Source: Odiellus spinosus
Taxonomy: Eukaryota > Arthropoda > Arachnida > Opiliones > Phalangiidae
Assembly: GCA_963920705.1 (NCBI GenBank)
Contig: OY987234.1
Coordinates: 7,979,907 to 8,043,906, forward strand
Length of the DNA stretch: 64,000 nucleotides
Reading direction: 5' to 3'
This document shows, piece by piece, positions 3,937 through 39,309 of this stretch; position 1 is the stretch's first letter, and each line of letters begins with the position of its first letter. Position numbers and translations under genes: made by a program. The notes under the pieces are model-generated. The model saw only the letters and a program-made list of their open reading frames with translations. It had not been told where the DNA came from and did not search any database.

Positions 3937-4788
3937 TTTTTCAAATCATGTTTTTCAAATCATGTTTTTCAAATCATGTTTTTCAAATCATGTTTTTCAA
4001 ATCATGTTTTTCAAATCATGTTTTTCAAATCATGTTTTTCAAATCATGTTTTTCAAATCATGTTTTTCAAATCATGTTTTTCAAATCATGTTTTTCAAAT
4101 CATGTTTTTCAAATCATGTTTTTCAAATCATGTTTTTCAAATCATGTTTTTCAAATCATGTTTTTCAAATCATGTTTTTCAAATCATGTTTTTCAAATCA
4201 TGTTTTTCAAATCATGTTTTTCAAATCATGTTTTTCAAATCATGTTTTTCAAATCATGTTTTTCAAATCATGTTTTTCAAATCATGTTTTTCAAATCATG
4301 TTTTTCAAATCATGTTTTTCAAATCATGTTTTTCAAATCATGTTTTTCAAATCATGTTTTTCAAATCATGTTTTTCAAATCATGTTTTTCAAATCATGTT
4401 TTTCAAATCATGTTTTTCAAATCATGTTTTTCAAATCATGTTTTTCAAATCATGTTTTTCAAATCATGTTTTTCAAATCATGTTTTTCAAATCATGTTTT
4501 TCAAATCATGTTTTTCAAATCATGTTTTTCAAATCATGTTTTTCAAATCATGTTTTTCAAATCATGTTTTTCAAATCATGTTTTTCAAATCATGTTTTTC
4601 AAATCATGTTTTTCAAATCATGTTTTTCAAATCATGTTTTTCAAATCATGTTTTTCAAATCATGTTTTTCAAATCATGTTTTTCAAATCATGTTTTTCAA
4701 ATCATGTTTTTCAAATCATGTTTTTCAAATCATGTTTTTCAAATCATGTTTTTCAAATCATGTTTTTCAAATCATGTTTTTCAAATCA
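3937..4788. repeat. 14-bp minisatellite, 60 perfect copies
   Basis: The unit TTTTTCAAATCATG repeats 60 times over 840 bp (3937-4776) with no visible variant, followed by a 12-bp partial unit. A 14-bp unit is not a multiple of three, so the plus strand reads a repeating 14-residue peptide in all three frames. The unit has no stop in any plus frame, which produces overlapping pseudo-ORFs of about 280-330 codons. The minus strand is closed by TGA in each unit. The perfect homogeneity suggests recent expansion or an assembly-simplified array. There is no sign of a real protein gene. Confidence 0.97.
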
Positions 4789-12736: not shown

Positions 12737-12962
12737 TGTTGTAGTTTGTTTTAAGATAGTTTAATCCATTTGTACTCAATTAATAACTACGTCTTTATTG
12801 CCGCTTTCTCCGATGAGTTTACAATCACTAATGACTACTATTAGTCTGGTAGGTCGAAGGTCAGCTTCTATCAGGGAGGGGGAGGTATAAATAGAACTTT
12901 AGATTGTTTATCTTTGTCTCCCTTATCTTATCTGACCTACGCCTAGCCAGACCTATACAACA
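12737..12962 (-). repeat. LTR (3' LTR in element sense)
   Basis: Starts TGTTGTAG and ends ATACAACA, 226 bp, identical by eye to 17749-17974. On the element's sense (minus) strand, an AATAAA polyadenylation signal lies at 12794-12799. Confidence 0.95.
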
Positions 12963-12990
12963 AGTTTTTTTTTTTTTTTTTTCGAACAAG
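12963..12990 (-). other. Polypurine-tract-like run before the 3' LTR
   Basis: On the minus strand a long A run ending in ACTT abuts the 3' LTR, where the plus-strand primer of an LTR retrotransposon is expected. Unusually it is nearly pure A. Confidence 0.5.
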
Positions 12991-13095
12991 AATTTCGTGA
13001 ATGTTTAACTACATTGTTTTGCTCTACATTTAAAGGAAAACTAATACATTTCAATTAAGTACCTATTTTATATATAGATATATTCTTAAATAAAT

Positions 13096-16000: not shown

Positions 16001-17637
16001 TGTACCCGACTACGTAGCTGTATTGGGATCTTCCGGGCATTGACAATAGTGGGCATGGCACCAGGTTTTAGTTTTATTTCATAGTGTCCTGGAAGCTTAC
16101 CAACAGTGTCGAACACATCCGCGTAATGTGCAACGAGGGCCTGCGGTGACATTTGGCGCAACGCCGTAGGAATTGTTAAAGTGTGGATTTTGCGTGGAGC
16201 CGTGTATCGCAGGTCCCTTGGTGTGACAGCTTTATTTTCGCAGAGGTTGTTTGGTAGACGAGCTATGAGTCCTAGTCGGCGTGATGCTTCTCCTCCAATG
16301 ATGGGTATTCTGTAATTTGATGTGACATAGAACGTTAATGGTATCGTGGTCATCGTGGACGAACAGAAGACCTGTATCATTCCTCTCGTATCAACTGAAT
16401 GTCCGGAATAGGCTTTTATCGTGTGAGTTGGGGCACTAAGCGGTGGTGGATTGGCCATTTCCTTGTAGATGTATTCCGGAATAACATTTACTTGAGAGCC
16501 TGTGTCAATTTTGAATATGTACTCTTGGTCGTAGAGTTTGAGCGGGGCCTTCCAAGTATGTTCCTGATTCCATGCTGTATGTTCGTCTGGTATCGTTGAG
16601 TATAGCGTTAGAGAGTTAAGGTATAAATAGTCCGAGTCGTTATCCATTATGGTGGAGATCTGAGGTTGAGCGTAAGGGACCGTCTCAAGTTGCTCGTGAT
16701 GCTCAGTATATGGTAGGTACGTTTCGAGAGTGTTGATCGCGCGACATACTTTGGCCCAGTGGTTCGGGCCCCCACAGGCGCGGCAGGTAGATCCCCTAGC
16801 TGGACATGATTGAGAGTGGTGAAGGTGCCCACACCTGTTGCATGGTGGAGTAGGACCCCCGAATCGTGCATGCGTTGGCATCGTGGAAAGAGATCTGGCT
16901 CTAGGTCGGAAACCGTGTTCTGTGTTTGCTGCTCGGTTGTGTGTACCTCGTGATCGAGTTCGGTTGAAAGAAGAGCTTGGTCTCTGAAACGGGCGCGTAT
17001 GTGAGTAATCACGTCCGGGACGTCGGTTTGAATTAGCCATGATCGCATCGACAGTGATTGGTGGGGAGTCTGATGCCGTGAATGCTGATTTCGTTGGATT
17101 CATTAGCTGGGCCTGCGCTGTGGATGTTTCTTCCGCTTGGGCTATCGTTATTGCATCGGGGAGCTTCAGGTCATTTATTTTCAAAAGTAGGCGGCGGACT
17201 TCCGGATTGTTGGTTCCGACGGCTATTTGAGTGGCTATCAGCGAATTCTTCAACGTACCCAAATTGCAGCCCGTTGCCGTTGTCTGAAGCTGCATGAGGA
17301 AAGACTCGAACGATTGGTGTGGAGCTTGTTTGCTGGTGATGAGATTGTAGCGCGACATTGTAATGCTCTGGTACGGTTGGTAGAATGCGTCGAATGCTTT
17401 GTAAATAAGTTCCAGAGTGAGGTTCGCTTCTGGTACCGTGAACGAAAGGGTTTTATATATCCGGAGGCCTTCGATACCTATTACGTGTTTAAAAACGTTG
17501 ATTTGGTGCATGATGTCCTCCTGAGTGAGTTTAGTGGCGGCGGCGTAGAGTTGAAAGCGTTCTTTATACTCCGCCCATGCCTCAGCTGGTTTAGATCCGG
17601 GCGTAAAGACGTCTGGGCTTTTAAAAGATGTCGTCAT
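13096..17637 (-). CDS. Gag-Pol polyprotein of Ty3/Gypsy-type retrotransposon
   Basis: A 1,513-residue single frame carrying all replication functions of the LTR element. I start at the ATG at 17637 (MTTSFKSP); the frame is open further upstream but has no ATG there. Gag occupies residues 1-300, with two zinc knuckles at about 266-298; the second is a canonical CX2CX4HX4C. The protease has DTG at 378-380. RT shows LDVKSAFWQ near 640 and the catalytic STDD at 691-694, where many relatives have YXDD. RNase H spans about 840-950 (ISVDASQHG, QTDHKPL). Integrase has an N-terminal zinc-binding region at about 1055-1092 ending CSSC, and a DD35E core of D1120, D1173 and E1209. No frameshift or stop is seen. 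Gag and Pol are fused with no visible frameshift site, so their ratio must be set by processing or another mechanism. Confidence 0.95.
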   Translation of the reverse strand: MTTSFKSPDVFTPGSKPAEAWAEYKERFQLYAAATKLTQEDIMHQINVFKHVIGIEGLRIYKTLSFTVPEANLTLELIYKAFDAFYQPYQSITMSRYNLITSKQAPHQSFESFLMQLQTTATGCNLGTLKNSLIATQIAVGTNNPEVRRLLLKINDLKLPDAITIAQAEETSTAQAQLMNPTKSAFTASDSPPITVDAIMANSNRRPGRDYSHTRPFQRPSSSFNRTRSRGTHNRAANTEHGFRPRARSLSTMPTHARFGGPTPPCNRCGHLHHSQSCPARGSTCRACGGPNHWAKVCRAINTLETYLPYTEHHEQLETVPYAQPQISTIMDNDSDYLYLNSLTLYSTIPDEHTAWNQEHTWKAPLKLYDQEYIFKIDTGSQVNVIPEYIYKEMANPPPLSAPTHTIKAYSGHSVDTRGMIQVFCSSTMTTIPLTFYVTSNYRIPIIGGEASRRLGLIARLPNNLCENKAVTPRDLRYTAPRKIHTLTIPTALRQMSPQALVAHYADVFDTVGKLPGHYEIKLKPGAMPTIVNARKIPIQLRSRVQAELQKMEAAGVIVPVTEATDWVHPMVVVRKTEIAREAGTRPEPALRICLDPRNLNKAIRRENYPMPTAQEIFAELTGATVFSVLDVKSAFWQIELTTKSSYLCTFATPFGKYRFTRLPFGIATASEYCQRIMNETFAGIGNKHISTDDFLIHGKNNEDHLKTLYQVLERSRRVGLKFNSKKMQLAVQRIVYLGNIITPSGIATDPAKIRIILDLPPPPDKPALLRFLGMINFLSKFIPAYSERAAPLRALMKQNVIFHWDAIAQAAYDDMKMAISTAPVLAFYNPSAPNTISVDASQHGIGAVLLQEGRPVEYASMTFSPTQIRYAQIEKELLAVYFACEHFNYFIATGPVTVQTDHKPLLAIIRKPFYLLSPRLQRLTLRLARYDPTLIYVPGTRLYIADTLSRAPSHKITMNTDFMEGPTATIYSMVALSEDRKQIMQETTAADHDLQHVLEYVRHGWPTRSSAIKSPTVRAYWALQEEIHEHQGLAYRGDRLIIPLTQRKDIMTQIHGIHQGVSACLSKARLHVYWPGMSTDITNYIRTCSSCRQRDAANTSLPLRPMEVPGLPWQTLGTDLFKWNSKNYILMIDYYSKFVEVQQLSTTNAESVIKFMAAQFARHGIPQTLISDNGPPFTSYMLTTFLQNWGVKQVTASPYHPQSNGLAERMVQTLKNFMTKAQTDGKDINHILLEYHSTPLANLLTPAEMLMGRKLRTPLTNNTKLLKPNYPTKQITAALHQRQKQMIDQSMKRPQKLLTPLKQGDKVWYQTDTRKWKPARITHYADTPDSYWILNDENKRLRRTRVHLRQRNVPLHPAQMANNSKSIPKDKPRNTYTTYERPARIITYGSKPDNGHGNSNEDQPIDVQENVQIDLRHKTTYQRNNPHTPSLASRNNNVSQLTTPTTGTEVEALPTVKQNGSKQLQQERSKSRTPGHKHGPPGACRPPTPPPFPVRSSYGRLLARPDRYEPTQ

Positions 17638-17730
17638 TGCTGCTGTCGTTGTACACGTCGTTTGTAATCCGTTTTCAGTTTGATTGAACTTCGTTTGTAG
17701 TAAAAGGAGAACAATCCGTTGATTTAGTTT

Positions 17731-17748
17731 CACGCACTTCTGGCACCA
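17731..17748 (-). other. Primer-binding site next to 5' LTR
   Basis: Directly inside the 5' LTR the minus strand reads TGGTGCCAGAAGTGCGTG. TGG at this position is the expected complement of a tRNA CCA end. I cannot assign the tRNA with confidence. Confidence 0.65.
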
Positions 17749-17974
17749 TGTTGTAGTTTGTTTTAAGATAGTTTAATCCATTTGTACTCAATTAATAACT
17801 ACGTCTTTATTGCCGCTTTCTCCGATGAGTTTACAATCACTAATGACTACTATTAGTCTGGTAGGTCGAAGGTCAGCTTCTATCAGGGAGGGGGAGGTAT
17901 AAATAGAACTTTAGATTGTTTATCTTTGTCTCCCTTATCTTATCTGACCTACGCCTAGCCAGACCTATACAACA
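17749..17974 (-). repeat. LTR (5' LTR in element sense)
   Basis: 226 bp, TG...CA, no difference from 12737-12962 found by eye. Transcription of the element would start here on the minus strand. The AATAAA signal copy lies at 17806-17811. Confidence 0.95.
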
Positions 17975-18555
17975 CTGTCATTTTAGTATTATTACTCCAT
18001 TATATTCCTACCATTTTAGTATATTACTCCATTATTATTCTACTATTTAAGTGTTATTTCTCCATTATTTTGCTATCATTTTAGTGTTATTTCTCCATTA
18101 TTTTTCTACCATTTTAGTGTGATTTTCTCTGGTATTTTTGTATCATTTTAATGTTATTTCTCCGGTATTTTCCTATCATTTTAGTGTGATTTTTCTCCGG
18201 TATTTTAATATCATTTTAGTGTGATTTTTCTCCTGTATTTTAGTATCATGTTAAGTGTTATTTCTCCGGTATTTTAGTATCATGTTAAGTGTTATTTCTC
18301 CGGTATTTTCCTATCATTTTAGTGTGATTTTTCTCCGATATTTTATATCATTTTAGTGTGATTTTTCTCCGATATTATCATATCATTTTAGTGTGATTTT
18401 TCTCCGATATTTTATATCATTTTAGTGTGATTTTTCTCCGATATTATCATATCATTTTAGTGTGATTTTTCTCCGATATTTTCAAATCATTTGAGTGTTA
18501 TATCTACTATATATTTTTCCTATAATTTTAGTGTTATTGTTCCTATAATTCATCT
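17975..18555. repeat. Minisatellite (right part)
   Basis: About 18 diverged copies of a ~30-33-bp unit built around CATTTTAGTGTGATTTTTCT and CCG(G/A)TATTTT. It continues the array at 12659-12736. Higher-order duplication is visible at 18340-18480, where TTTATATCATT and TATCATATCATT variants alternate. Confidence 0.9.
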
Positions 18556-25179: not shown

Positions 25180-25185
25180 TGTATC
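25180..25185. other. Target-site duplication (left), TGTATC
   Basis: TGTATC immediately precedes the element's first base and recurs at 39304-39309 right after its last base. A 6-bp duplication is a hallmark of Polinton/Maverick integration. Confidence 0.9.
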
Positions 25186-25191
25186 AGTAGA

Positions 25192-25199
25192 TATAAAAG
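25192..25199 (+). promoter_or_regulatory. TATA-like motif at the element's left terminus
   Basis: TATAAAAG lies seven bases from the outermost base, pointing inward. The mirror copy is at 39290-39297. It could be a core promoter or simply part of the terminal replication/integration signal. Confidence 0.35.
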
Positions 25200-25214
25200 G
25201 GGCGTTCAAGCACA

Positions 25215-25280
25215 GGAGGTGCCAAGAGGTTCCGGAGGTGCCAAGAGGTTCCGGAGGTGCCAATAGGTTCCGGTGGTGCC
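25215..25280. repeat. 19-bp subterminal tandem repeats (left)
   Basis: Three and a half copies of GGAGGTGCCAAGAGGTTCC, the last ones slightly varied. Mirrored at 39209-39274. Their position just inside the terminus suggests a replication-origin or protein-binding array. Confidence 0.85.
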
Positions 25281-25324
25281 CATTTTGAATTTTTCAAAAT
25301 TTTTTTTTTTTTTTTTTTTTTTTT

Positions 25325-25393
25325 CATCCGGGTTTCGAACCTGGTACCCAATGTATGTGAGTTAAGTACATTAGCAGACTACGCCATCTCCTC
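25325..25393 (-). other. tRNA-like sequence with poly(A), left tip
   Basis: Read on the minus strand, an A-box-like TGGCGTAGTCTG (25386-25375) and a perfect B-box-type GGTTCGAAACC (25341-25331) are spaced as in tRNA genes. They are followed by a 25-base A run. The T arm pairs CCAGG/CCCGG with one mismatch and the other stems are poor, so this is a tRNA-derived relic or SINE head rather than a working tRNA. The same unit sits in the other tip. Confidence 0.6.
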
Positions 25394-25409
25394 TTATCAA
25401 CTTTTAAAA

Positions 25410-25450
25410 TAATTTCCATCCTTATCTATAATTTCCATCCTTATCTATAT
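25410..25450. repeat. Direct duplication of ~20 bp
   Basis: AATTTCCATCCTTATCTAT occurs twice in tandem. The mirror copy is at about 39040-39080. Confidence 0.8.
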
Positions 25451-25941
25451 TCTCAGTTCTTATCTCTATGTTCATATATCACTGAAAGTTTAAATGATAA
25501 GGCGCCAAATCAAATGTGAATCTATAACCTATACTGAAACCTCTTTAAGCCTTTACCTCTTTCGAATTTCGCGCGGTTCTCCTATCAGTAGTATCATGTT
25601 ATCGACGAAAGTCTTTGCGTGTCCTATCTCAAAACACATCAGATAAATTGATGGATATTCAAATATCTTAACAAATAACTAGAAGAATTTCTCCAAGTAA
25701 ACATAACTATAAATTTAAACTGCAAATATACGAATATTATTATAAATCAATATAGTAAATGCGGAAAAATACCCAAACAAGTTGGTGAACACCACGTTAT
25801 CAAATTAAAATTGAAAAGTTAGGCCTAATTACAACGTGTATGAAATACCCTAGTGATATATACAATTAAAGCTAGTGGTTAAACCCTACGCGTCATTGGT
25901 AAAAGCTATTTCACAACTTCAAACACGGACATAACACAGGG

Positions 25942-25948
25942 TATAAAG
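25942..25948 (+). promoter_or_regulatory. TATA box of small gene (left arm)
   Basis: GGGTATAAAG lies about 80 bases upstream of the split start codon. The polymerase gene has the same GGGTATAAA context. Confidence 0.6.
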
Positions 25949-26022
25949 CTAGAATTAGTTATAGTTATAGTCATTTTAAGTTCCCTTCAATCGTATTCCA
26001 GTCATCCACAAGAACACTAAAA

Positions 26023-26759
26023 ATGTAAGTACCATTTCGCTCTTAAAATTAACTTAGAAACTATTTCTACCGCCTTAAAAACTTTGAAATTATTAATTTA
26101 ACCTAAATAACACGATACCCTTCTAAATAACTTAGTAATTTTTCTTCTTAATATCTTATTATTATAAACCCCAATTAACTTAGTCGATCATTTGCAGGGA
26201 CAACACAAACGTATTCGAGATCTCGTCAAGCAAATCAGTTACCGTCACCCCTGACTGTAAAATTAGACTTGGATTTACTGAAGGGTACACTGGAATCAAT
26301 CTCAGCGAGGAGGAGTACATTCAAATATATCGAAGAAATCTCTCAATACTTTCAAAACGAGGACGCAAGCCCCTCATCGGTTTTCCTCGAAGGATCAAAC
26401 CATAAACAGGTGGAACAGTTCTATGGGAGAAACTCTTGGAACAACATCATCAAGTCGAGATCATGCTTAACGAAACTAAGAAAGTCTATCAAGCTATTAA
26501 GGAAATCGTCATTCTACAGCTAACGGGACTTATCAAAAACTCTTGCAATGGTTGTCTCATTGACCATCCATCGCAAAACCAACATGACTGCATAATACAT
26601 GATTGGACAGAACGGGTAGAAATTAACTTTTCAAATGCTGTAAATAATTTAAATATCCAATTAATTACCGAAATCTTTAATAATTCAACTTTTTTAAGTT
26701 TCAATTTTTGTAAGCAAATGGTGACTAAAATTATTTGTATTTCGAAACAATATTTGTAA
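26023..26759 (+). pseudogene. Small two-exon gene with in-frame stop (left arm)
   Basis: The start codon is split: AT at 26023-26024, a 173-bp GT-AG intron (26025-26197, donor GTAAGT), then G at 26198. The frame runs 69 codons to TAA at 26403-26405 and, in the same frame, another 117 codons to 26759. The first part (residues about 20-55, KIRLGF and NLSEEEYIQIYRR) is loosely like PC4-type single-strand DNA-binding domains, which is a weak call. The second part has a C-X2-C-X3-H-X5-H-X-C candidate zinc site around CNGCLIDHPSQNQH. One original reading frame broken by a stop is the simplest view. Two separate proteins or readthrough are alternatives. The other arm carries the same stop. Confidence 0.6.
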
Positions 26760-27025
26760 ACAAAGAAAACTCTAAATTTCAAACTCACAAAATATGTCAT
26801 TTCTTAATATTGATATAGTAAGCAAATAAAATTGAAAAATGTTTTTCCATATTCTGCTAAGGGAATAATTCACTGGGATAGGAGTCAATTATATATTTGT
26901 TTTCTCATCGTTTATTTCAAAATGGCTGCCGTAATTTCTAATCAAGGATCGATATTTCCAGAGTGTGATAAAGGCTAGGGTTTTCCCCAATTAATCAGTG
27001 ACTCATTGTTTAAGATAAGAAAGGG

Positions 27026-27033
27026 TATAAATA
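27026..27033 (+). promoter_or_regulatory. TATA box of polymerase gene (left arm)
   Basis: GGGTATAAATAC lies about 120 bases upstream of the polymerase ATG, leaving a plausible 5' UTR of about 90-95 bases. Confidence 0.6.
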
Positions 27034-27151
27034 CTAAATTTTCCAAATCGAAAACATTACAAGTTCCTGCTCTCTACAAGCAACATCATCTCCTCTGGTA
27101 ATATTACAAGTCTTTAATTTTAAACCTAGTTACTTAGAAATTAGCTACAAA

Positions 27152-30100
27152 ATGGTCATCTGCCATATTTGTGGGGCTAAGTTCGCCCATAGTAAAAGTT
27201 TACTTCGCCATGAACGAGAAAAACACGGAGATATTAAATATCCGTGTAGTATTTGCGCTCTGACCTTCACGAGGAAGGAGAACCTCGCCCGACATACCCT
27301 TACTCACCATGGAGCAGGTCTGCCGCAAGTAGCCAGCCCGAAACGTCGCTTGGACACCGTCCCTATGAAGGACGTTAAGAAGGCGAAGACAGACGAATCT
27401 CCACCATGGACCATCGCCATAATGCCTGCTTCCCGCCCGGTTCCTGATACCAACACCGTCCCGTCAACGATCACCGACCCGTTAACTTCCGCTCTATCTA
27501 CCAGGACTAACGCCACATCTGACACGACTGCCGCTACATCCGCCACGAACGTTCCCGACGATCTAGAGAGAGGATTTCTGGAGAGCCAAAATGACGCGGG
27601 GCTCAAAGAATTTCTCGACGACGAGGATTTCCCGATGGGCACTCTTAGCGACCAGGAGAACGAGAAGTTACAAAACTTCATGAGGGTCATGGAAGACCGT
27701 GAAGTAGATGCCCTTCCGCTGCCAGACGTCGCTACAGAGGATAGATCCCGAGTCTTCGACCAGTTGGAAGAAATGATAGCGTTACGAAACGCTATTTTCT
27801 GCGCGCGCTTCACACCGGAAGCTTTGGAAACTGACGTGGAAGTTTACACAAATCGTCATAGGGTAGCCCTCTTAAACTATCTGCAGACCAAGTTAGCTCA
27901 TGATAAGGGAATTAAATGGTATTTAACCATGCGAGTACGGTACGTCCGCGAACTCAATACGGGCGAGGAAGTGGAGTTTATCGCGTATCATAATAGTAAC
28001 GTGCAAATATCTCTAACGGTAGACACTATTAATAGACAAATTGACGCTTGTATGGAAACGTTAAAAAGGAAAATTGAGGAGTTTCAAAAACGCGGAAGTG
28101 GATGGACCATAGACAGGATCTTATTCATGCAAGTTAATATAATCACGTATTTACCTCTCGTAGGTGGAACTTTTATCGAGCTACCCAAGGTACTCGCCGA
28201 TAAAAAGGCTATCACGAACATTAAAAATGTGGACAATAGATGTTTCCTATGGTCCATTTTAGCTCATCTACATCCTGTAAAGATTAATCCTAATCGGGTG
28301 CAAAAATATATCAGGTTTCAGGACGAATTAGACTTGTCAGAAATAACATTTCCTTTTGAGTTTAATTCCGAGAAGCTAAAGAAGTTCGAGGAAAAAAACA
28401 ATCTCTCAATTAATATCTTTTGCTACGAAAAATTCGTCTACCCCCTATACATTAGCGAGAATAGAATCGAAAAAGCCCGCGAAATTGACCTTTTACTAAT
28501 CACGAAAGGAGAAAAAAGACACTTTTGTCTAATTCGTAGCCTGAGTCGGCTACTCAGTAATTTCACGAAGCATAATCCATCCACACATTACTGTCGGTAT
28601 TGCTTACATCGATTCTCGGGACCCAACTCTGAACGTAATCGCGATGAACATGTGAAAGAGTGTAGTATTCATGGACCTCAGAAAATTATCATGCCTAATA
28701 AAGAACCGGTTTTGGAGTTTCAAAAATTTGGATGGCGGCAAAAAGTAAGTTTGAAATTTCGCTACGTATATTTTAATTTATTTCTAATAATTTTTTTTTC
28801 TTTTATAGAACAAGTTTGTTATTTTCGCCGACTTTGAGGCTATCCTCCCCAAAGTCTCAACGTGTATGCCCGACTCAACTCTCTCGTCCTCGACCACGCT
28901 GGCTCATCACGTGTCGTGTGGATTCAGCTACGTGATTGTAGGCCCGGACGGAACACCATCGGAACCCGTGACGTATCGGGGTAAAGACGCGACCGAGAAG
29001 TTTCTCGAGAAACTTTTAGCTGAGGAAAAGATTTTAGCCGCGAAAATCAAAGAAAACGTCCCGATGTGCCTAACCCCGGCGGAAGAAGTTACTTTCCTGA
29101 CGTCATCAACGTGCTACGTCTGCGGTAAAGGTTTCACCGTAACCGACAACAAGGTTCGTGATCACGACCATACCGACGGATCGTTTCGAGGAGCCGCCCA
29201 CAACTCCTGCAATCTGAAATTAAAGGCGCCAAAGTTCATCCCGGTCTTCCTACATAATCTTTCCAAGTAAATATTTTTAATTTAATTTTTCAAAGTTATT
29301 TTTATTTATTTATGTTTTCTTTTCAGTTACGATGCCCATTTAATAATGGATAAAATCGGGTTAATTAAGGAGCACGAGATTAAATGCATACCCAGCTCCT
29401 CAGAAAAATATATAAGTTTTTCACTTGGCGGTCTAAGGTTCCTTGACACTATTAGGTTCATGCCCGCGTCCTTGGAAACCTTGGCGTCAAACCTCGCTAA
29501 AGGCGGTATGGATAAGTTTCCATGCATGAACCGTATCTATCAGCCGGACGAAGTTCAACTCTTGCTTCGAAAGCAAATCTACGCCTACGATTACATGGAT
29601 AGCGAAGCGAGGTTTGAGGAAACAGAACTGCCGCCCAAGGAAGCTTTCTTCAACACCCTGACGGACGAACACATCTCTGACGAAGACTACGTCCACGCCC
29701 AGAATGTATGGAGAAAATTCAACATACAAAATCTAGGTAGGTTAAATATAATGCTGAGTTAGGTTAAGAAATAATATTTTTTTTCATATATTTTAGGCGA
29801 GTATCACGACTTGTACGTGCAATCGGATGTCATACTCTTGGCGGACATTTTCCAAAACTTCCGGTCCATGTGTATGGATTATTACAAACTCGACTGTACA
29901 CACGCCTTCACTGGTCCGGGATTCGCTTGGGAAAGCGCCTTGAGTATGACGGGCGTCAAGTTGGAGTTACTTATTGACCTCGATATGCACCTTTTCATCG
30001 AGAAAGGAATACGGGGAGGAGTCGCCATGATTAGTCATAGGTTCGCTAAAGCGAATAATAAGGATTTGCCGGAGACGTATGACCCGACAAAGCCTAAGAG

Positions 30101-31496
30101 CTACATCGCGTACTTGGGTAAGTTAATAGATAATTATAATCTGGGTAAATAATAAATAAATTTTTTAGATTGCAACAACCTGTACGGTAAGGCGATGTGC
30201 GACTACCTTCCGATAAGCGGCTTCAAATGGATTCAACCTTGCCCAGATTTCACAGAGGAAATTATCCTCAATCATCCCGACGACGAAGAAATCGGCTATA
30301 TCCTAGAAGTCGACCTAGAATACCCGGAACATCTACATGACGAGCATAACTGCTACCCGTTGGCACCCGAAAAACGAGTCATCAAACCCGACGAACTATC
30401 TCCATACTCCAAAGACCAGTTAAAGGAACTCGGGTTAAAGGAGAAGGATAGTTTTCCGAAACTCGTGCCTTCCCTTTATAAGAGGGAGAAATACGTCATC
30501 CACTACAGGAATTTACAATATTACGTCTCCAAGGGGATGGTTATCACTAAAATCCACCGTGTTTTAACATTCACGCAAGGACCGTGGTTGAAACCCTTCA
30601 TAGATTTTAACACGGAGAAGAGGAAGATGGCCACCAACGACTTCGAGAAAGACTTCTTCAAGTTGATGAACAACGCAGTCTACGGTACGTGACCTAACCT
30701 AACCTAACCTAACCCAACCTATTTAATGATTTTTGTTTCTTTCACAGGCAAGACGATGGAGAATTTACGTAATCGCATCAACTTCGACCTCGTACAGACG
30801 CCGGAACGAGCCATCAAAAAAGCCAGTTCGCCGACATTCAAGCGTTTCACCGTATTCAAAAACGACTTGGTCGGGATTCATCGATCCCACAAGGCTCTCG
30901 TTCTCAACCGCCCTATCTATACGGGATTCGTCATTTTGGACCTATCCAAACTTCTGATGTATCGTTTCCATTATGACGTCATCAGAGCTCAATACGGGAA
31001 TGCGGCGAAATTACTCTTCACCGACACCGACTCCCTAACCTACCAGATCGAGACCGAAGACCTCTATCTGGACTTTGCTGCAAAGGCTGACTTCTACGAC
31101 TTTTCCGGCTACCCTAAGGACCATCCGCTTTACAGCGACGTCAACAAGAAGGTGCTGGGAAAGTTTAAAGATGAACTTGACGGCACTCCCGTCCAGGAAT
31201 TTTGCGGATTACGCCCTAAAATGTATTCGATGCTCTCAGCCAAGGGAGAGAAGAAGACGGCAAAGGGAATCTGCCGAAGAGTCGTCCAGAAGAAAGTGCG
31301 ACATGCTCAATATCGCGAATGTCTTTTGAAGAGAAAACTGACGGTAGAGGAGATGAAGCGTATCGTAAGCAACCGACATGAGCTTACCACAATAAGGCAG
31401 ACTAAACTCTGCCTTAACCCTTGTGACGATAAACGTTACGTCGTTGATGGGATCGCTACACTAGCCCACGGTCATTTCAAAATTCCTAAGGAATAA
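27152..31496 (+). CDS. Family-B DNA polymerase, protein-primed type (left arm)
   Basis: Six exons: 27152-28744, 28809-29266, 29327-29736, 29797-30117, 30169-30684 and 30748-31496. All introns are 50-65 bp and GT-AG, and phases are consistent, giving 1,348 residues. Two C2H2 zinc fingers lie at about 4-55 and a CX2C...HX3C cluster at 481-504. The exonuclease has ExoI DFE at 539-541, ExoII NYDAH at about 684-688, and ExoIII Y827/D831. A CYVCG...CN endonuclease-VII-like zinc region lies at 633-665. Polymerase motif A is DCNNLYG (928), motif B KLMNNAVYG (1092-1100), and motif C FTDTDS (D1192, D1194). All catalytic acidic residues I looked for are present, so it may be active. The family replicates linear genomes by priming from a terminal protein. 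The closest type is that of Polinton/adintovirus-like elements. Confidence 0.93.
30685..30747 (+). repeat. Intron with CCTAA telomere-like repeats (left arm)
   Basis: The fifth polymerase intron is largely (CCTAA)n-like, matching the arthropod telomere motif and the tracts near the palindrome centre. Confidence 0.7.
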
Positions 31497-31667
31497 TATA
31501 TATATTTTTTTCTTTTATACTCGAGTTATATAATTGTGTTATTTTTGTTTTTGTATAATTGAATTTTTAGATCTTTTTAAAGAGTAATTGACTTTAATTT
31601 TTTTTTTTAAATTGAATATTTAAATGTTTTTATTTTTTATTATTATTATTTTTTTTTTTTTACCAAT

Positions 31668-31673
31668 AATAAA
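31668..31673 (+). terminator. Polyadenylation signal AATAAA (left polymerase gene)
   Basis: The sequence TACCAATAATAAATAATTG about 170 bases past the stop contains AATAAA; T-rich sequence precedes it. The mirror is at 32817-32822. Confidence 0.5.
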
Positions 31674-31735
31674 TAATTGTGAATCTAAACTTTGAAATTA
31701 TTTTTGCCTATTATTCATACTTAAGCCTAAATCAA

Positions 31736-31870
31736 AGGTCAGGGCGAAGGGGGTTGCCGCGCCTACCACGCCGCGACGCGTTTAACCGTGCGTGTTTGAA
31801 ATTTGAATCGCGTGCAACCCGCGACTACCGAACATTGCCGCCCTCCCGTCAATTATATGAATGGAACTTA
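31736..31870. repeat. GC-rich repeat unit, left-arm copy
   Basis: A GC-rich block in very AT-rich DNA. The stretch 31762-31828 matches the 65-bp palindrome spacer at about 85% by eye. Its right side, CCCTCCCGTCAATTATAT, equals the sequence flanking the spacer. Two imperfect inverted ends (TAAG... and ...CTTA) suggest a short inverted-repeat element of about 130-150 bp. Confidence 0.7.
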
Positions 31871-32016
31871 AGTGACATAGGATAATATAGAAACTATTTA
31901 TGAGAGATGCTTTAGACCCTGATTATAGTCAAGAACTACTTCAAGATCATTAAAGATAAAATAATGACATAGACGTAGAAACAATTTTTGGAATAAGTCT
32001 ATTAAGTGTATAGGAT

Positions 32017-32170
32017 AACACCTAACTTAATCTAACTTAATCTAACCTAACCCAACCTAACTTACCCTAACTTAACCTTACCTAACTTAATAACCTAAGC
32101 TAACCTAACCCAACCTAACTTAATCTAACCTAACCTAATATAATATAACCTAACCTAACCTAACCTCACC
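32017..32170. repeat. Degenerate CCTAA tract, left of centre
   Basis: About 150 bp of CCTAACTTAAT/CCTAACC variants, a degenerate form of the TTAGG-type telomere motif. The mirror on the right (32320-32473) reads TTAGG outward. Confidence 0.85.
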
Positions 32171-32318
32171 TAAGCTCCATCCATATAATTGACGGGAGGG
32201 TGGGCATGCGCGCCTACCACACCGCGACGCGTTTAACTGCGCGCGTTTGAAATTTGAATAGCGCGCCCCGCGACTACCGCGCATGCCCACCCTCCCGTCA
32301 ATTATATGGATGGAGCTT
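32171..32318. repeat. Palindrome centre: hairpin with 65-bp spacer
   Basis: Inverted ends TAAGCTCCATCCATATAATT and the GACGGGAGGGTGGGCATGCG stretch surround the asymmetric spacer 32213-32277, which begins CCTACCAC and ends GCGACTAC. The whole unit is a relative of the GC-rich repeat at 31736-31870, here with better-preserved inverted ends. Confidence 0.85.
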
Positions 32319-32319
32319 A

Positions 32320-32473
32320 GGTGAGGTTAGGTTAGGTTAGGTTATATTATATTAGGTTAGGTTAGATTAAGTTAGGTTGGGTTAGGTTAGCTTAGGTTAT
32401 TAAGTTAGGTAAGGTTAAGTTAGGGTAAGTTAGGTTGGGTTAGGTTAGATTAAGTTAGATTAAGTTAGGTGTT
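32320..32473. repeat. Degenerate TTAGG tract, right of centre
   Basis: Mirror of 32017-32170. The two tracts read CCTAA then TTAGG across the centre, the opposite polarity to two chromosome ends fused end to end. Confidence 0.85.
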
Positions 32474-32619
32474 ATCCTATACACTTAATAGACTTATTCC
32501 AAAAATTGTTTCTACGTCTATGTCATTATTTTATCTTTAATGATCTTGAAGTAGTTCTTGACTATAATCAGGGTCTAAAGCATCTCTCATAAATAGTTTC
32601 TATATTATCCTATGTCACT

Positions 32620-32754
32620 TAAGTTCCATTCATATAATTGACGGGAGGGCGGCAATGTTCGGTAGTCGCGGGTTGCACGCGATTCAAATTTCAAACACGC
32701 ACGGTTAAACGCGTCGCGGCGTGGTAGGCGCGGCAACCCCCTTCGCCCTGACCT
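32620..32754. repeat. GC-rich repeat unit, right-arm copy
   Basis: Mirror of 31736-31870, with CCGCGACTACCG-type sequence read on the minus strand. Confidence 0.7.
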
Positions 32755-32816
32755 TTGATTTAGGCTTAAGTATGAATAATAGGCAAAAATAATTTCAAAG
32801 TTTAGATTCACAATTA

Positions 32817-32822
32817 TTTATT
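32817..32822 (-). terminator. Polyadenylation signal (right polymerase gene)
   Basis: TTTATT on the plus strand is AATAAA on the minus strand, about 170 bases past the polymerase stop. Confidence 0.5.
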
Positions 32823-32993
32823 ATTGGTAAAAAAAAAAAAATAATAATAATAAAAAATAAAAACATTTAAATATTCAATTTAAAAAAAAAAATTAAAGTC
32901 AATTACTCTTTAAAAAGATCTAAAAATTCAATTATACAAAAACAAAAATAACACAATTATATAACTCGAGTATAAAAGAAAAAAATATATATA

Positions 32994-35900
32994 TTATTCC
33001 TTAGGAATTTTGAAATGACCGTGGGCTAGTGTAGCGATCCCATCAACGACGTAACGTTTATCGTCACAAGGGTTAAGGCAGAGTTTAGTCTGCCTTATTG
33101 TGGTAAGCTCATGTCGGTTGCTTACGATACGCTTCATCTCCTCTACCGTCAGTTTTCTCTTCAAAAGACATTCGCGATATTGAGCATGTCGCACTTTCTT
33201 CTGGACGACTCTTCGGCAGATTCCCTTTGCCGTCTTCTTCTCTCCCTTGGCTGAGAGCATCGAATACATTTTAGGGCGTAATCCGCAAAATTCCTGGACG
33301 GGAGTGCCGTCAAGTTCATCTTTAAACTTTCCCAGCACCTTCTTGTTGACGTCGCTGTAAAGCGGATGGTCCTTAGGGTAGCCGGAAAAGTCGTAGAAGT
33401 CAGCCTTTGCAGCAAAGTCCAGATAGAGGTCTTCGGTCTCGATCTGGTAGGTTAGGGAGTCGGTGTCGGTGAAGAGTAATTTCGCCGCATTCCCGTATTG
33501 AGCTCTGATGACGTCATAATGGAAACGATACATCAGAAGTTTGGATAGGTCCAAAATGACGAATCCCGTATAGATAGGGCGGTTGAGAACGAGAGCCTTG
33601 TGGGATCGATGAATCCCGACCAAGTCGTTTTTGAATACGGTGAAACGCTTGAATGTCGGCGAACTGGCTTTTTTGATGGCTCGTTCCGGCGTCTGTACGA
33701 GGTCGAAGTTGATGCGATTACGTAAATTCTCCATCGTCTTGCCTGTGAAAGAAACAAAAATCATTAAATAGGTTGGGTTAGGTTAGGTTAGGTTAGGTCA
33801 CGTACCGTAGACTGCGTTGTTCATCAACTTGAAGAAGTCTTTCTCGAAGTCGTTGGTGGCCATCTTCCTCTTCTCCGTGTTAAAATCTATGAAGGGTTTC
33901 AACCACGGTCCTTGCGTGAATGTTAAAACACGGTGGATTTTAGTGATAACCATCCCCTTGGAGACGTAATATTGTAAATTCCTGTAGTGGATGACGTATT
34001 TCTCCCTCTTATAAAGGGAAGGCACGAGTTTCGGAAAACTATCCTTCTCCTTTAACCCGAGTTCCTTTAACTGGTCTTTGGAGTATGGAGATAGTTCGTC
34101 GGGTTTGATGACTCGTTTTTCGGGTGCCAACGGGTAGCAGTTATGCTCGTCATGTAGATGTTCCGGGTATTCTAGGTCGACTTCTAGGATATAGCCGATT
34201 TCTTCGTCGTCGGGATGATTGAGGATAATTTCCTCTGTGAAATCTGGGCAAGGTTGAATCCATTTGAAGCCGCTTATCGGAAGGTAGTCGCACATCGCCT
34301 TACCGTACAGGTTGTTGCAATCTAAAAAATTTATTTATTATTTACCCAGATTATAATTATCTATTAACTTACCCAAGTACGCGATGTAGCTCTTAGGCTT
34401 TGTCGGGTCATACGTCTCCGGCAAATCCTTATTATTCGCTTTAGCGAACCTATGACTAATCATGGCGACTCCTCCCCGTATTCCTTTCTCGATGAAAAGG
34501 TGCATATCGAGGTCAATAAGTAACTCCAACTTGACGCCCGTCATACTCAAGGCGCTTTCCCAAGCGAATCCCGGACCAGTGAAGGCGTGTGTACAGTCGA
34601 GTTTGTAATAATCCATACACATGGACCGGAAGTTTTGGAAAATGTCCGCCAAGAGTATGACATCCGATTGCACGTACAAGTCGTGATACTCGCCTAAAAT
34701 ATATGAAAAAAAATATTATTTCTTAACCTAACTCAGCATTATATTTAACCTACCTAGATTTTGTATGTTGAATTTTCTCCATACATTCTGGGCGTGGACG
34801 TAGTCTTCGTCAGAGATGTGTTCGTCCGTCAGGGTGTTGAAGAAAGCTTCCTTGGGCGGCAGTTCTGTTTCCTCAAACCTCGCTTCGCTATCCATGTAAT
34901 CGTAGGCGTAGATTTGCTTTCGAAGCAAGAGTTGAACTTCGTCCGGCTGATAGATACGGTTCATGCATGGAAACTTATCCATACCGCCTTTAGCGAGGTT
35001 TGACGCCAAGGTTTCCAAGGACGCGGGCATGAACCTAATAGTGTCAAGGAACCTTAGACCGCCAAGTGAAAAACTTATATATTTTTCTGAGGAGCTGGGT
35101 ATGCATTTAATCTCGTGCTCCTTAATTAACCCGATTTTATCCATTATTAAATGGGCATCGTAACTGAAAAGAAAACATAAATAAATAAAAATAACTTTGA
35201 AAAATTAAATTAAAAATATTTACTTGGAAAGATTATGTAGGAAGACCGGGATGAACTTTGGCGCCTTTAATTTCAGATTGCAGGAGTTGTGGGCGGCTCC
35301 TCGAAACGATCCGTCGGTATGGTCGTGATCACGAACCTTGTTGTCGGTTACGGTGAAACCTTTACCGCAGACGTAGCACGTTGATGACGTCAGGAAAGTA
35401 ACTTCTTCCGCCGGGGTTAGGCACATCGGGACGTTTTCTTTGATTTTCGCGGCTAAAATCTTTTCCTCAGCTAAAAGTTTCTCGAGAAACTTCTCGGTCG
35501 CGTCTTTACCCCGATACGTCACGGGTTCCGATGGTGTTCCGTCCGGGCCTACAATCACGTAGCTGAATCCACACGACACGTGATGAGCCAGCGTGGTCGA
35601 GGACGAGAGAGTTGAGTCGGGCATACACGTTGAGACTTTGGGGAGGATAGCCTCAAAGTCGGCGAAAATAACAAACTTGTTCTATAAAAGAAAAAAAAAT
35701 TATTAGAAATAAATTAAAATATACGTAGCGAAATTTCAAACTTACTTTTTGCCGCCATCCAAATTTTTGAAACTCCAAAACCGGTTCTTTATTAGGCATG
35801 ATAATTTTCTGAGGTCCATGAATACTACACTCTTTCACATGTTCATCGCGATTACGTTCAGAGTTGGGTCCCGAGAATCGATGTAAGCAATACCGACAGT

Positions 35901-37338
35901 AATGTGTGGATGGATTATGCTTCGTGAAATTACTGAGTAGCCGACTCAGGCTACGAATTAGACAAAAGTGTCTTTTTTCTCCTTTCGTGATTAGTAAAAG
36001 GTCAATTTCGCGGGCTTTTTCGATTCTATTCTCGCTAATGTATAGGGGGTAGACGAATTTTTCGTAGCAAAAGATATTAATTGAGAGATTGTTTTTTTCC
36101 TCGAACTTCTTTAGCTTCTCGGAATTAAACTCAAAAGGAAATGTTATTTCTGACAAGTCTAATTCGTCCTGAAACCTGATATATTTTTGCACCCGATTAG
36201 GATTAATCTTTACAGGATGTAGATGAGCTAAAATGGACCATAGGAAACATCTATTGTCCACATTTTTAATGTTCGTGATAGCCTTTTTATCGGCGAGTAC
36301 CTTGGGTAGCTCGATAAAAGTTCCACCTACGAGAGGTAAATACGTGATTATATTAACTTGCATGAATAAGATCCTGTCTATGGTCCATCCACTTCCGCGT
36401 TTTTGAAACTCCTCAATTTTCCTTTTTAACGTTTCCATACAAGCGTCAATTTGTCTATTAATAGTGTCTACCGTTAGAGATATTTGCACGTTACTATTAT
36501 GATACGCGATAAACTCCACTTCCTCGCCCGTATTGAGTTCGCGGACGTACCGTACTCGCATGGTTAAATACCATTTAATTCCCTTATCATGAGCTAACTT
36601 GGTCTGCAGATAGTTTAAGAGGGCTACCCTATGACGATTTGTGTAAACTTCCACGTCAGTTTCCAAAGCTTCCGGTGTGAAGCGCGCGCAGAAAATAGCG
36701 TTTCGTAACGCTATCATTTCTTCCAACTGGTCGAAGACTCGGGATCTATCCTCTGTAGCGACGTCTGGCAGCGGAAGGGCATCTACTTCACGGTCTTCCA
36801 TGTCCCTCATGAAGTTTTGTAACTTCTCGTTCTCCTGGTCGCTAAGAGTGCCCATCGGGAAATCCTCGTCGTCGAGAAATTCTTTGAGCCCCGCGTCATT
36901 TTGGCTCTCCAGAAATCCTCTCTCTAGATCGTCGGGAACGTTCGTGGCGGATGTAGCGGCAGTCGTGTCAGATGTGGCGTTAGTCCTGGTAGATAGAGCG
37001 GAAGTTAACGGGTCGGTGATCGTTGACGGGACGGTGTTGGTATCAGGAACCGGGCGGGAAGCAGGCATTATGGCGATGGTCCATGGTGGAGATTCGTCTG
37101 TCTTCGCCTTCTTAACGTCCTTCATAGGGACGGTGTCCAAGCGACGTTTCGGGCTGGCTACTTGCGGCAGACCTGCTCCATGGTGAGTAAGGGTATGTCG
37201 GGCGAGGTTCTCCTTCCTCGTGAAGGTCAGAGCGCAAATACTACACGGATATTTAATATCTCCGTGTTTTTCTCGTTCATGGCGAAGTAAACTTTTACTA
37301 TGGGCGAACTTAGCCCCACAAATATGGCAGATGACCAT
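32994..37338 (-). CDS. Family-B DNA polymerase, protein-primed type (right arm)
   Basis: Mirror copy of the left-arm gene. Exons on the minus strand: 37338-35746, 35681-35224, 35163-34754, 34693-34373, 34321-33806 and 33742-32994, 1,348 residues. All motifs are as in the left copy, including the zinc fingers, DFE exonuclease site, endonuclease-VII-like zinc region and FTDTDS. The only coding change I found is Asp for Val at residue 179 (left 27687, right 36803), in a linker upstream of the catalytic domains. The two genes converge, so long transcripts from both arms would be complementary. Confidence 0.93.
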
Positions 37339-37456
37339 TTTGTAGCTAATTTCTAAGTAACTAGGTTTAAAATTAAAGACTTGTAATATTACCAGAGGAG
37401 ATGATGTTGCTTGTAGAGAGCAGGAACTTGTAATGTTTTCGATTTGGAAAATTTAG

Positions 37457-37464
37457 TATTTATA
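37457..37464 (-). promoter_or_regulatory. TATA box of polymerase gene (right arm)
   Basis: Mirror of 27026-27033 (GGGTATAAATAC on the minus strand). Confidence 0.6.
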
Positions 37465-37730
37465 CCCTTTCTTATCTTAAACAATGAGTCACTGATTAAT
37501 TGGGGAAAACCCTAGCCTTTATCACACTCTGGAAATATCGATCCTTGATTAGAAATTACGGCAGCCATTTTGAAATAAACGATGAGAAAACAAATATATA
37601 ATTGACTCCTATCCCAGTGAATTATTCCCTTAGCAGAATATGGAAAAACATTTTTCAATTTTATTTGCTTACTATATCAATATTAAGAAATGACATATTT
37701 TGTGAGTTTGAAATTTAGAGTTTTCTTTGT

Positions 37731-38467
37731 TTACAAATATTGTTTCGAAATACAAATAATTTTAGTCACCATTTGCTTACAAAAATTGAAACTTAAAAAA
37801 GTTGAATTATTAAAGATTTCGGTAATTAATTGGATATTTAAATTATTTACAGCATTTGAAAAGTTAATTTCTACCCGTTCTGTCCAATCATGTATTATGC
37901 AGTCATGTTGGTTTTGCGATGGATGGTCAATGAGACAACCATTGCAAGAGTTTTTGATAAGTCCCGTTAGCTGTAGAATGACGATTTCCTTAATAGCTTG
38001 ATAGACTTTCTTAGTTTCGTTAAGCATGATCTCGACTTGATGATGTTGTTCCAAGAGTTTCTCCCATAGAACTGTTCCACCTGTTTATGGTTTGATCCTT
38101 CGAGGAAAACCGATGAGGGGCTTGCGTCCTCGTTTTGAAAGTATTGAGAGATTTCTTCGATATATTTGAATGTACTCCTCCTCGCTGAGATTGATTCCAG
38201 TGTACCCTTCAGTAAATCCAAGTCTAATTTTACAGTCAGGGGTGACGGTAACTGATTTGCTTGACGAGATCTCGAATACGTTTGTGTTGTCCCTGCAAAT
38301 GATCGACTAAGTTAATTGGGGTTTATAATAATAAGATATTAAGAAGAAAAATTACTAAGTTATTTAGAAGGGTATCGTGTTATTTAGGTTAAATTAATAA
38401 TTTCAAAGTTTTTAAGGCGGTAGAAATAGTTTCTAAGTTAATTTTAAGAGCGAAATGGTACTTACAT
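37731..38467 (-). pseudogene. Small two-exon gene with in-frame stop (right arm)
   Basis: Mirror copy of the left-arm gene: AT of the start codon at 38467-38466, intron 38465-38293, second exon 38292-37731. The same TAA occurs at 38087-38085. Because both arms share the stop, it arose before the inverted duplication, or gene conversion spread it. The candidate zinc site and the weak PC4-like N-terminal part are unchanged. Confidence 0.6.
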
Positions 38468-38541
38468 TTTTAGTGTTCTTGTGGATGACTGGAATACGAT
38501 TGAAGGGAACTTAAAATGACTATAACTATAACTAATTCTAG

Positions 38542-38548
38542 CTTTATA
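38542..38548 (-). promoter_or_regulatory. TATA box of small gene (right arm)
   Basis: Mirror of 25942-25948. Confidence 0.6.
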
Positions 38549-39096
38549 CCCTGTGTTATGTCCGTGTTTGAAGTTGTGAAATAGCTTTTACCAATGACGC
38601 GTAGGGTTTAACCACTAGCTTTAATTGTATATATCACTAGGGTATTTCATACACGTTGTAATTAGGCCTAACTTTTCAATTTTAATTTGATAACGTGGTG
38701 TTCACCAACTTGTTTGGGTATTTTTCCGCATTTACTATATTGATTTATAATAATATTCGTATATTTGCAGTTTAAATTTATAGTTATGTTTACTTGGAGA
38801 AATTCTTCTAGTTATTTGTTAAGATATTTGAATATCCATCAATTTATCTGATGTGTTTTGAGATAGGACACGCAAAGACTTTCGTCGATAACATGATACT
38901 ACTGATAGGAGAACCGCGCGAAATTCGAAAGAGGTAAAGGCTTAAAGAGGTTTCAGTATAGGTTATAGATTCACATTTGATTTGGCGCCTTATCATTTAA
39001 ACTTTCAGTGATATATGAACATAGAGATAAGAACTGAGAATATAGATAAGGATGGAAATTATAGATAAGGATGGAAATTATTTTAAAAGTTGATAA

Positions 39097-39165
39097 GAGG
39101 AGATGGCGTAGTCTGCTAATGTACTTAACTCACATACATTGGGTACCAGGTTCGAAACCCGGATG
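39097..39165 (+). other. tRNA-like sequence with poly(A), right tip
   Basis: Plus-strand mirror of the left-tip unit. The A-box-like TGGCGTAGTCTG is at 39104-39115 and the B-box GGTTCGAAACC at 39149-39159. An A24 run follows at 39166-39189. It is not a foldable standard tRNA; a tRNA-derived SINE head is the likely origin. Confidence 0.6.
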
Positions 39166-39208
39166 AAAAAAAAAAAAAAAAAAAAAAAATTTTGAAAAAT
39201 TCAAAATG

Positions 39209-39274
39209 GGCACCACCGGAACCTATTGGCACCTCCGGAACCTCTTGGCACCTCCGGAACCTCTTGGCACCTCC
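39209..39274. repeat. 19-bp subterminal tandem repeats (right)
   Basis: Mirror of 25215-25280 (units read GGAACCTCTTGGCACCTCC). Confidence 0.85.
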
Positions 39275-39303
39275 TGTGCTTGAACGCCCCTTTTATATCT
39301 ACT

Positions 39304-39309
39304 TGTATC
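39304..39309. other. Target-site duplication (right), TGTATC
   Basis: Matches 25180-25185. Beyond it the flanks are unrelated. Confidence 0.9.

Follow-up and report, generated by a model that had tools for sequence, protein, structure and literature searches.

How does a chromosome come to hold a 14-kb palindrome with a DNA polymerase gene in each arm, and does such a structure stand alone? Both questions arise from contig OY987234.1 of Odiellus spinosus, of which a stretch of 64,000 nt (hereafter the window) was analysed.

Structure of the palindromic element

The inverted duplication spans positions 25186-39303 of the window (Table 1). Compared in register, the arms differ by one base and by the length of one poly-T run. 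The single true mismatch in the 6929-nt core, T at 27687 against A at 36803 in the mirrored arm, is a Val/Asp difference within the polymerase frame; the six other listed core differences appear because T25 versus T24 in the poly-T run shifts the register, and the arms agree at every position of the outer 138 nt. This identity over about 7 kb is not attributable to chance. Arm alignment and reading of the ends confirmed the palindrome with its 65-nt spacer, as first proposed, together with the 6-bp TGTATC that directly flanks both termini as a direct target duplication. Mirrored flanks outside TGTATC would have spoken against this structure; the flanks were read and share no mirror symmetry. 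ARAGORN and Rfam searches of the window gave no match.

Table 1. Features of the palindrome and its borders, in window coordinates.
Feature	Position	Strand	Basis
Left TGTATC target-site duplication, 6 bp	25180..25185	+	sequence outside left end
Left arm, 7027 nt, 5' start AGTAGATATAAAAGGGG	25186..32212	+	arm alignment
Terminal direct repeat, 19 bp, 3.5 copies (GGAGGTGCCAAGAGGTTCC)	25215..25280, mirror 39209-39274	+	repeat analysis
Broken PC4-like gene	26175..26756	+	63% identity, 2 stops
Gene with two C2H2 fingers, endonuclease VII domain and family B DNA polymerase, six open pieces	27152..31496	+	frames, domain matches
GC-rich unit A, resembling the sequence between polymerase and protease in full Polintons	31758..31875, mirror 32615-32732	+	sequence comparison
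Degenerate ACCTA/TTAGG repeats, left arm	32020..32173	+	repeat analysis
Unit B (86% identity with unit A), running across the spacer and into the right arm for 47 nt	32209..32324	+	sequence comparison
Central spacer, 65 nt	32213..32277	.	arm alignment
Right arm, 7026 nt	32278..39303	-	arm alignment
TTAGG repeats, right arm	32317..32470	-	repeat analysis
144-nt centre segment, inverted copy in left arm	32471..32614	.	98.6% to C4, only C4 among fetched loci
Polymerase gene, second copy	32994..37338	-	mirror of left-arm copy
Broken PC4-like gene, second copy	37734..38315	-	mirror of left-arm copy
Right TGTATC target-site duplication, 6 bp	39304..39309	+	sequence outside right end

With a second, inverted intergenic unit and the 144-nt segment, the centre is more complex than one fold-back. 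The locus C4 is collinear with the window across this whole centre, including the 144-nt segment; the full Polinton L032 matches just the first 178 nt of the centre of the window and C4.

Genes in the arms

The initial annotation credited each arm with a complete polymerase gene and with nothing besides replication genes. The former holds in that the frame contains no stop over 1319 codons, and needs the qualification that it is split into six open pieces by short gaps. These gaps are read as putative introns, because the same positions are interrupted in a full Polinton. The Endonuclease_7 match lies above the curated cut-off, two polymerase pieces match DNA_pol_B_2, both below it, and the catalytic motifs of a family B polymerase were recognised by eye. 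The product, homologous to the PolB of the C8 Polinton, is predicted to be a protein-primed-type family B DNA polymerase. An IMG/VR scan with the last polymerase piece found no relative, a profile scan of IMG/VR returned one Polinton-like contig (L029), and a PDB search with the last piece gave one chance-level match; relatives of the first polymerase piece and of the capsid protein turned up in protein searches.

The second part of the claim was too narrow, each arm also containing an extra, broken PC4-like gene with the same lesions in both arms. An open copy of this gene at locus C17 matches PF02229, the ssDNA-binding coactivator PC4.

Full Polintons in the same genome

In one Polinton of this genome the gene order was read throughout: the same polymerase gene as in the palindromes (PolB), a Peptidase_C5-like protease, a DJR-like capsid protein, an IVa2-like ATPase and an rve+chromo integrase. 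The protease scores 21.0 for Peptidase_C5 against a cut-off of 21.3; a genome-wide search with this family gave no match, and neither did its control. Three other full Polintons, 12.3-13.7 kb long (n=3), have palindrome-type ends with terminal repeats of about 0.4 kb, and 6-bp duplications were present in all three with ends read. On the polymerase side, the three are 97-98% identical to the end of the C47 palindrome over 1015 bp, and the polymerase end of C47 is 99.6% identical to that of C77, where a capsid gene adjoins.

The palindromes correspond to the end-to-polymerase half of a Polinton, present twice, with the capsid/protease/ATPase/integrase half missing, and the proposed Polinton link and snap-back form gain support from the shared end type and polymerase gene. 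Among the matches listed, a capsid gene lay within 8 kb of PolB at 0/9 inverted-pair and 19/28 single loci (Fisher p 0.0004); in these counts, C215 and C210 at least are probably duplicates of each other. The 27 rows compared included no full Polinton from the polymerase clade to which the window element belongs, and no C47-type centre block was seen downstream of PolB in the three full Polintons whose sequence was read at that point. That the window holds an ordinary foldback-type cut-and-paste transposon, with which very long inverted repeats by themselves would be compatible, is highly improbable, as the polymerase, the PC4-like gene, the terminus type and the duplication length all match full Polintons of the same genome.

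Other palindromes in the genome

The same 443-Mb genome contains nine or more additional loci with long inverted arms. A 5'-AGTAG start and a 6-bp duplication were present at 8/8 independent insertion sites with both ends read: the window (TGTATC), C17 (GCTGGA), C2 (AAGCTA), C3 (CATATT), C183 (AATGAA), C47 (GGGGAG), a second C17 element (AACGGA) and C215 (AGACGG). C4, both C5 elements and C1, which offer no complete end pair, were left out of this count, and the three C183 loci, tandem copies about 41 kb apart, were counted as one. C210 appears to duplicate C215. Long-read libraries are known to contain artefactual folded reads, and a read folded on itself could yield such a pattern; an assembly or sequencing artefact is nonetheless scarcely credible when the flanks are unlike each other and share a direct 6-bp duplication at the junctions, the arm end is a Polinton terminus, and the pattern recurs at eight sites, each with a different duplication.

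Palindromes with two types of centre were found at several sites. The 38-nt spacer is identical in C17 and C2, and C3 has the same centre with a one-sided loss. The C47-type centre block also occurs in C17, C2, C3, two C183 copies and one of the C5 elements; C215 carries part of it. C183 was considered as an independent asymmetric fold-back, which was dropped given the centre block in two of its copies; it is now read as a palindrome minus part of one arm. Spacer orientation was likewise abandoned as a sign of flip-flop, a symmetric element being able to insert in either direction. Seven palindromes with both ends read measure 12.2-14.1 kb.

Palindromes with a common centre at other sites (window and C4; C17 and C2; C47, C3 and C215) refute the notion of a one-off captured molecule, the search of the genome for such centres pointing to a lineage. 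The two arms of each palindrome evolve as one: left and right arm of one element were nearest relatives in 7/7 unduplicated elements compared, with sister support weak in C3 (0.77) and C17 (0.74) because few bases differ. In C4 the arms are 97.6% identical over the whole aligned arm and 99.3% in the segment used for this comparison. Stops in the polymerase pieces number one in the C47 left arm and two in the C4 right arm.

Gene conversion after insertion could be an alternative source of arm likeness. A rival explanation has palindromes arise within the chromosome: break repair would overwrite one half of an inserted full Polinton with the other, starting in mid-element and stopping in the short terminal repeat. 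Such copying would keep the 6-bp duplication and make the arms identical, and the roughly 0.4-kb terminal repeats of full Polintons could end the copy tract. It is unlikely all the same: common centres and the same symmetric lesions recur at different insertion sites, so the palindrome itself must move, and the divergence of the C4 arms means that in-place conversion fails to hold arms identical.

Probable dependence on full Polintons

The initial annotation had alternatively suggested a self-sustaining palindromic polymerase lineage. The lineage stands, given the common centres; its self-sufficiency does not fit the gene content. The palindrome stretches searched yielded no integrase, capsid, protease or ATPase gene; there, an rve-type integrase query from L033 had no match, and 0/7 proteins encoded in the remaining half of the C8 Polinton matched. 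In addition, the C17/C2/C3/C5 subfamily is present at several sites without polymerase pieces 2-6. An autonomous lineage carrying all it needs, independent of full Polintons, would accord with the several loci, the open polymerase pieces and the low nonsynonymous/synonymous ratio; in view of both the 0/7 result and the spread of that subfamily, it is very unlikely. The ratio is 0.23 on the window branch after its split from C4, with 60 synonymous and 50 nonsynonymous changes over 1303 polymerase codons; this selection signal could come from unsampled full ancestors, and exchange between palindromes and full Polintons is possible. Because structural and integration genes were not found in the stretches searched and one subfamily lacks the polymerase, dependence is likelier than self-sufficiency, and the palindromes have probably multiplied beside complete relatives on which they depend.

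Proposed origin and propagation

The window element is most probably a snap-back derivative of a Polinton/Maverick, a doubled half belonging to a lineage that now multiplies by hairpin copying and is mobilised in trans. A strand that was displaced or still nascent during protein-primed copying would fold back and copy itself, presumably where a GC-rich gap full of repeats separates polymerase from protease, and the product would have the same priming end twice. This palindromic molecule could replicate as a long hairpin, because its displaced strand would fold back into duplex DNA that has one complete origin end. Hairpin mismatches would be repaired or overwritten, so that both arms would be alike after each cycle. 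The integrase, and perhaps packaging too, may be supplied by full Polintons with matching ends, and after insertion the symmetry of the centre would be lost in older copies. A more specific version, which we advance tentatively as somewhat less than an even prospect, is a satellite-Polinton lineage living as palindromes, with hairpin replication, arms rewritten in every cycle, and integrase and capsids from a helper; the palindromes would then match the helper in length because they are packaged.

To our knowledge, the hairpin or panhandle steps of Polinton replication have been inferred and never observed, and a family in which each arm is rewritten from its partner would be a genomic record of this step. 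Full elements coexist in one genome with palindromes that have the polymerase and palindromes that lack it, so that trans-mobilisation, packaging length limits and interference can be tested. If the proposal is true, satellite palindromes are the transposon counterpart of defective interfering genomes, in a heritable form. Palindromes in assemblies also call for caution, since they may be genuine mobile elements.

Comparison with known systems

Polintons in general have terminal repeats that start with AG and duplicate 6 bp of their target. The window element shares these features with Polinton/Maverick elements (polintovirus, adintovirus-like), along with a family B polymerase and terminal inverted repeats, and both AG-start ends and 6-bp duplications were found in the palindromes. 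Unlike a Polinton/Maverick, it is almost wholly inverted repeat and carries its genes twice, and the integrase, capsid, adenovirus-type protease and packaging ATPase of its relative in the same genome were not found in the parts of the palindromes that were searched. The FB and Galileo foldback transposons also have very long inverted repeats, but they belong to another transposase class and have no polymerase, which the window element has.

None of the papers searched lists a comparable palindromic half-Polinton element. The features of a snapback genome are present: one genome end is doubled, the other half is lost, a terminus stands at each end, and a complete relative coexists. Adenoviruses and linear plasmids are protein-primed replicons whose palindromic defective genomes double one end in the same way; those are known as transient replication products, whereas the palindromes make up a family of insertions that multiplies. 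The priming chemistry of adeno-associated virus (AAV) differs from that of Polinton-type elements. In one AAV study, snapback subgenomes are described as self-complementary, with one genome end doubled, in symmetric and asymmetric forms, and as needing the full virus (PMC8235507). They resemble the palindromes, which double one end and probably rely on a full relative; unlike them, the palindromes are polymerase-bearing genomic insertions with centres common between sites, and they form a lineage.

Structure of the palindrome and other features of the window

The window lies at G000:C12:7979907-8043906 in a genome of 443 Mb and 286 contigs. Sequence self-comparison revealed an inverted duplication whose two arms are identical except for a single base and an extra T in a poly-T run. 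TGTATC directly flanks it on the left and right, and the sequence beyond is not mirrored, in agreement with the palindromic insertion proposed in the initial annotation. Each arm carries a terminal repeat region, a broken PC4-like gene, a gene combining family B polymerase pieces with two C2H2 fingers and an endonuclease VII domain, and, centre-ward, a GC-rich unit as well as TTAGG-like repeats. The DNA_pol_B_2 matches in this gene were both under the cut-off (E 0.002 and 0.009), and the catalytic motifs were seen by eye in the translation. The B-box and poly-T piece of the arm termini is perhaps an old SINE-derived piece; ARAGORN called no tRNA there, and part of the region aligns with the end of a Polinton on contig C8.

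Features of the window and of related loci (C, contigs of the same genome; L017, a fetched palindrome of the C17 type)
Location	Feature	Remark
Window 25186-39303	Palindromic element	65-nt spacer
Window 25300-25395 and mirror	tRNA-like B-box adjoining pure poly-T	Terminal region of both arms, by eye
Window 12737-17974	Retrotransposon-like unit	Gypsy-type by eye
Window 13096-17772, minus	1558-aa frame of this unit	Between two identical 226-bp direct repeats
Window 17975-18542	35-bp tandem array	Directly after the unit
Window 3936-4788	Perfect array, ~61 copies of a 14-bp unit	Three forward frames open
C8:9303000-9322700	Polinton of the palindromes' family	At least 14 kb; right end inside an N stretch
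L017:2627-3346	PC4-like gene (ssDNA-binding coactivator family)	PF02229, E 1.9e-7; here and in relatives adjoins the polymerase or finger gene
L017:3577-4590	Finger domain fused to a protein without clear family	C17-type palindromes, where the polymerase would be
C183:243016, 284370, 324530	Three copies of a single palindrome insertion	~41 kb apart

Full Polintons in the same genome

The C8 Polinton contains a partial match to the PC4-like gene, a finger-endonuclease-polymerase gene with the same six pieces as the palindrome and, next after it, the GC-rich unit with TTAGG repeats. On the strand opposite to the polymerase it encodes a protease that scores 21.0 bits for Peptidase_C5 (E 0.00029, cut-off 21.3), a capsid-like protein (match to DJR-like under cut-off, E 0.06) whose relatives bear the names F54H12.2-like and, once, capsid protein, an ATPase that scores 20.4 for Adeno_IVa2 (E 0.00025, cut-off 21), and an integrase whose rve and chromo domains both exceed their cut-offs. 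Three more elements, on C5 (12.9 kb), C12 (12.3 kb) and C8 (13.7 kb), were also read as full Polintons, and each contains a capsid match and a polymerase match. They start with AGTAG, have terminal repeats of ~0.4 kb and are flanked by the duplications AGCTAT, CTGGGT and ATTATT, respectively. Compared with the end of the C47 palindrome, their polymerase side is 97–98% identical over 1015 bp, whereas the opposite side matches over 392 bp only. A capsid search gave at least 94 matches in the genome (best 89 of 937 candidates), many of them open and 98–100% identical, so movement of this Polinton family has been recent.

Palindromes elsewhere in the genome

Searching the same genome for further copies, as the initial annotation had advised, gave at least 148 matches to the outer 2.9 kb of the arm, many in inverted pairs (best 40 of 261 candidates). 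Long inverted arms were present, besides the window, on C4, C47, C17 (two), C2, C3, C5 (two), C215 and C183 (three). The tandem C183 copies, counted as one insertion, are a segmental duplication that carried the palindrome along, and the second C17 element is known from its ends, centre and one polymerase piece. Paired ends were readable at eight independent sites (window, C17, C2, C3, C183, C47, second C17 and C215), a count outside which C4, both C5 elements and C1 fall, as they yielded no end pair. All eight start with 5'-AGTAG and have a 6-bp duplication, different in sequence at each. Such a duplication is a general Polinton trait, tested here directly on the elements.

Polymerase matches (best 40 of 608 candidates) grouped into at least 37 loci, including C215 and C210, which are probably copies of each other. 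Among the matches listed, none of the nine loci with an inverted partner had a capsid match within 8 kb, whereas 19 of 28 single loci had one 0.5–1 kb past the polymerase (Fisher p 0.0004). Four of the nine single loci devoid of a capsid match (C183 three times, C15) look like palindrome remnants, leaving five others. Seven proteins from the non-polymerase half of the C8 Polinton had no match in the window, in the C4, C183, C17, C2, C3, C5, C258 and C47 loci, or in the segments retrieved from C215, C192 and the second C17 element.

Shared centres

The initial annotation had taken palindromes with the same centre as the sign of a lineage, and two centre types were found, each at more than one site. 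In the first, a 38-nt spacer is identical between C17 and C2, and C3 shares their centre apart from a loss on one side; the C47 centre block recurs in two C183 copies, one C5 element, C17, C2 and C3, with a partial occurrence in C215. In the second, C4 is ~92% like the window, has ~46 of its 65 spacer bases and is collinear with it from the spacer to the GC-rich unit (91.7%). A 144-nt segment between the repeats and this unit occurs, among the fetched loci, in the window and C4 only, and a full Polinton (L032) matches just the first 178 nt of their centre. The recurrence of both types means that the palindrome itself was passed on.

Joint evolution of the arms

In a tree of 21 arm segments (arm positions 261–1646), across which elements diverge by up to 12.6%, left and right arms were mutually nearest in 7/7 cases (window, C4, C17, C2, C3 and both C5 elements), with weak support for C3 (0.77) and C17 (0.74) because few bases differ. 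The C183 copies cluster by side, as expected for segmental copies of one insertion, and C258 has just a single arm. Damage is mirrored as well: both window arms carry a PC4-like gene disrupted in an identical manner, and C17, C2, C3 and both C5 elements retain the finger part only in either arm, polymerase pieces 2–6 being found in neither. PC4-related sequence, open in some cases and broken in others, was present in 17/17 sequences compared (window, palindromes, fragments and C8 Polinton). Similarity between arms is 97.6% over the full length in C4 (99.3% for the part used in the tree) and 97.2–98.1% in C183, so arm identity decays once an element has inserted. In C47-type palindromes (L030, L054-L056), polymerase arms resembling their full-Polinton counterparts are joined to a centre common to polymerase-less palindromes, which looks like a cassette exchange, identical in both arms.

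Polymerase phylogeny and substitution ratios

In a polymerase-end tree of 27 rows, the C47 and second C17 palindromes grouped with full support in a single clade alongside C215 and six capsid-linked Polintons (highest identity 99.6%, to C77), and the window, C4, C15 and C1 formed a clade without a full member among these rows. Window and C47 differ by dS 0.93 and dN 0.077 over 1317 codons; one stop lies in the C47 left arm and two in the C4 right arm. Over 1303 codons with C47 as outgroup, 60 synonymous and 50 nonsynonymous changes fell on the window branch (ratio 0.23), and 57 and 70 on the C4 branch (ratio 0.33). Together with the centre common to both, these ratios suggest that the polymerase was in use during the palindromic state, a reading open to the caveat of exchange with full Polintons.

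Proposed mechanism and comparison with known systems

Polinton replication has been suggested to proceed via a single-stranded intermediate with protein priming (PMC4061559). Probably a strand folded back in the polymerase-protease gap and then copied itself, giving a product with two good ends, copyable as a hairpin, and such copying accounts for the lasting likeness of the arms. Integrase must be supplied by another element, most obviously by full Polintons whose ends match. Packaging in trans is a possibility in view of the sizes: leaving C183 aside, the seven palindromes read to both ends span 12.2–14.1 kb, and the three full elements 12.3–13.7 kb. This agreement may be no more than a result of folding close to the middle, however, and the C183 copies measure less (8.0–9.7 kb). 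Among the openly licensed PMC matches listed by an exact-word search, titles and opening abstracts described no palindromic Polintons. The closest described analogue is the snapback genomes of adeno-associated virus, for which PMC8235507 reports symmetric and asymmetric forms.
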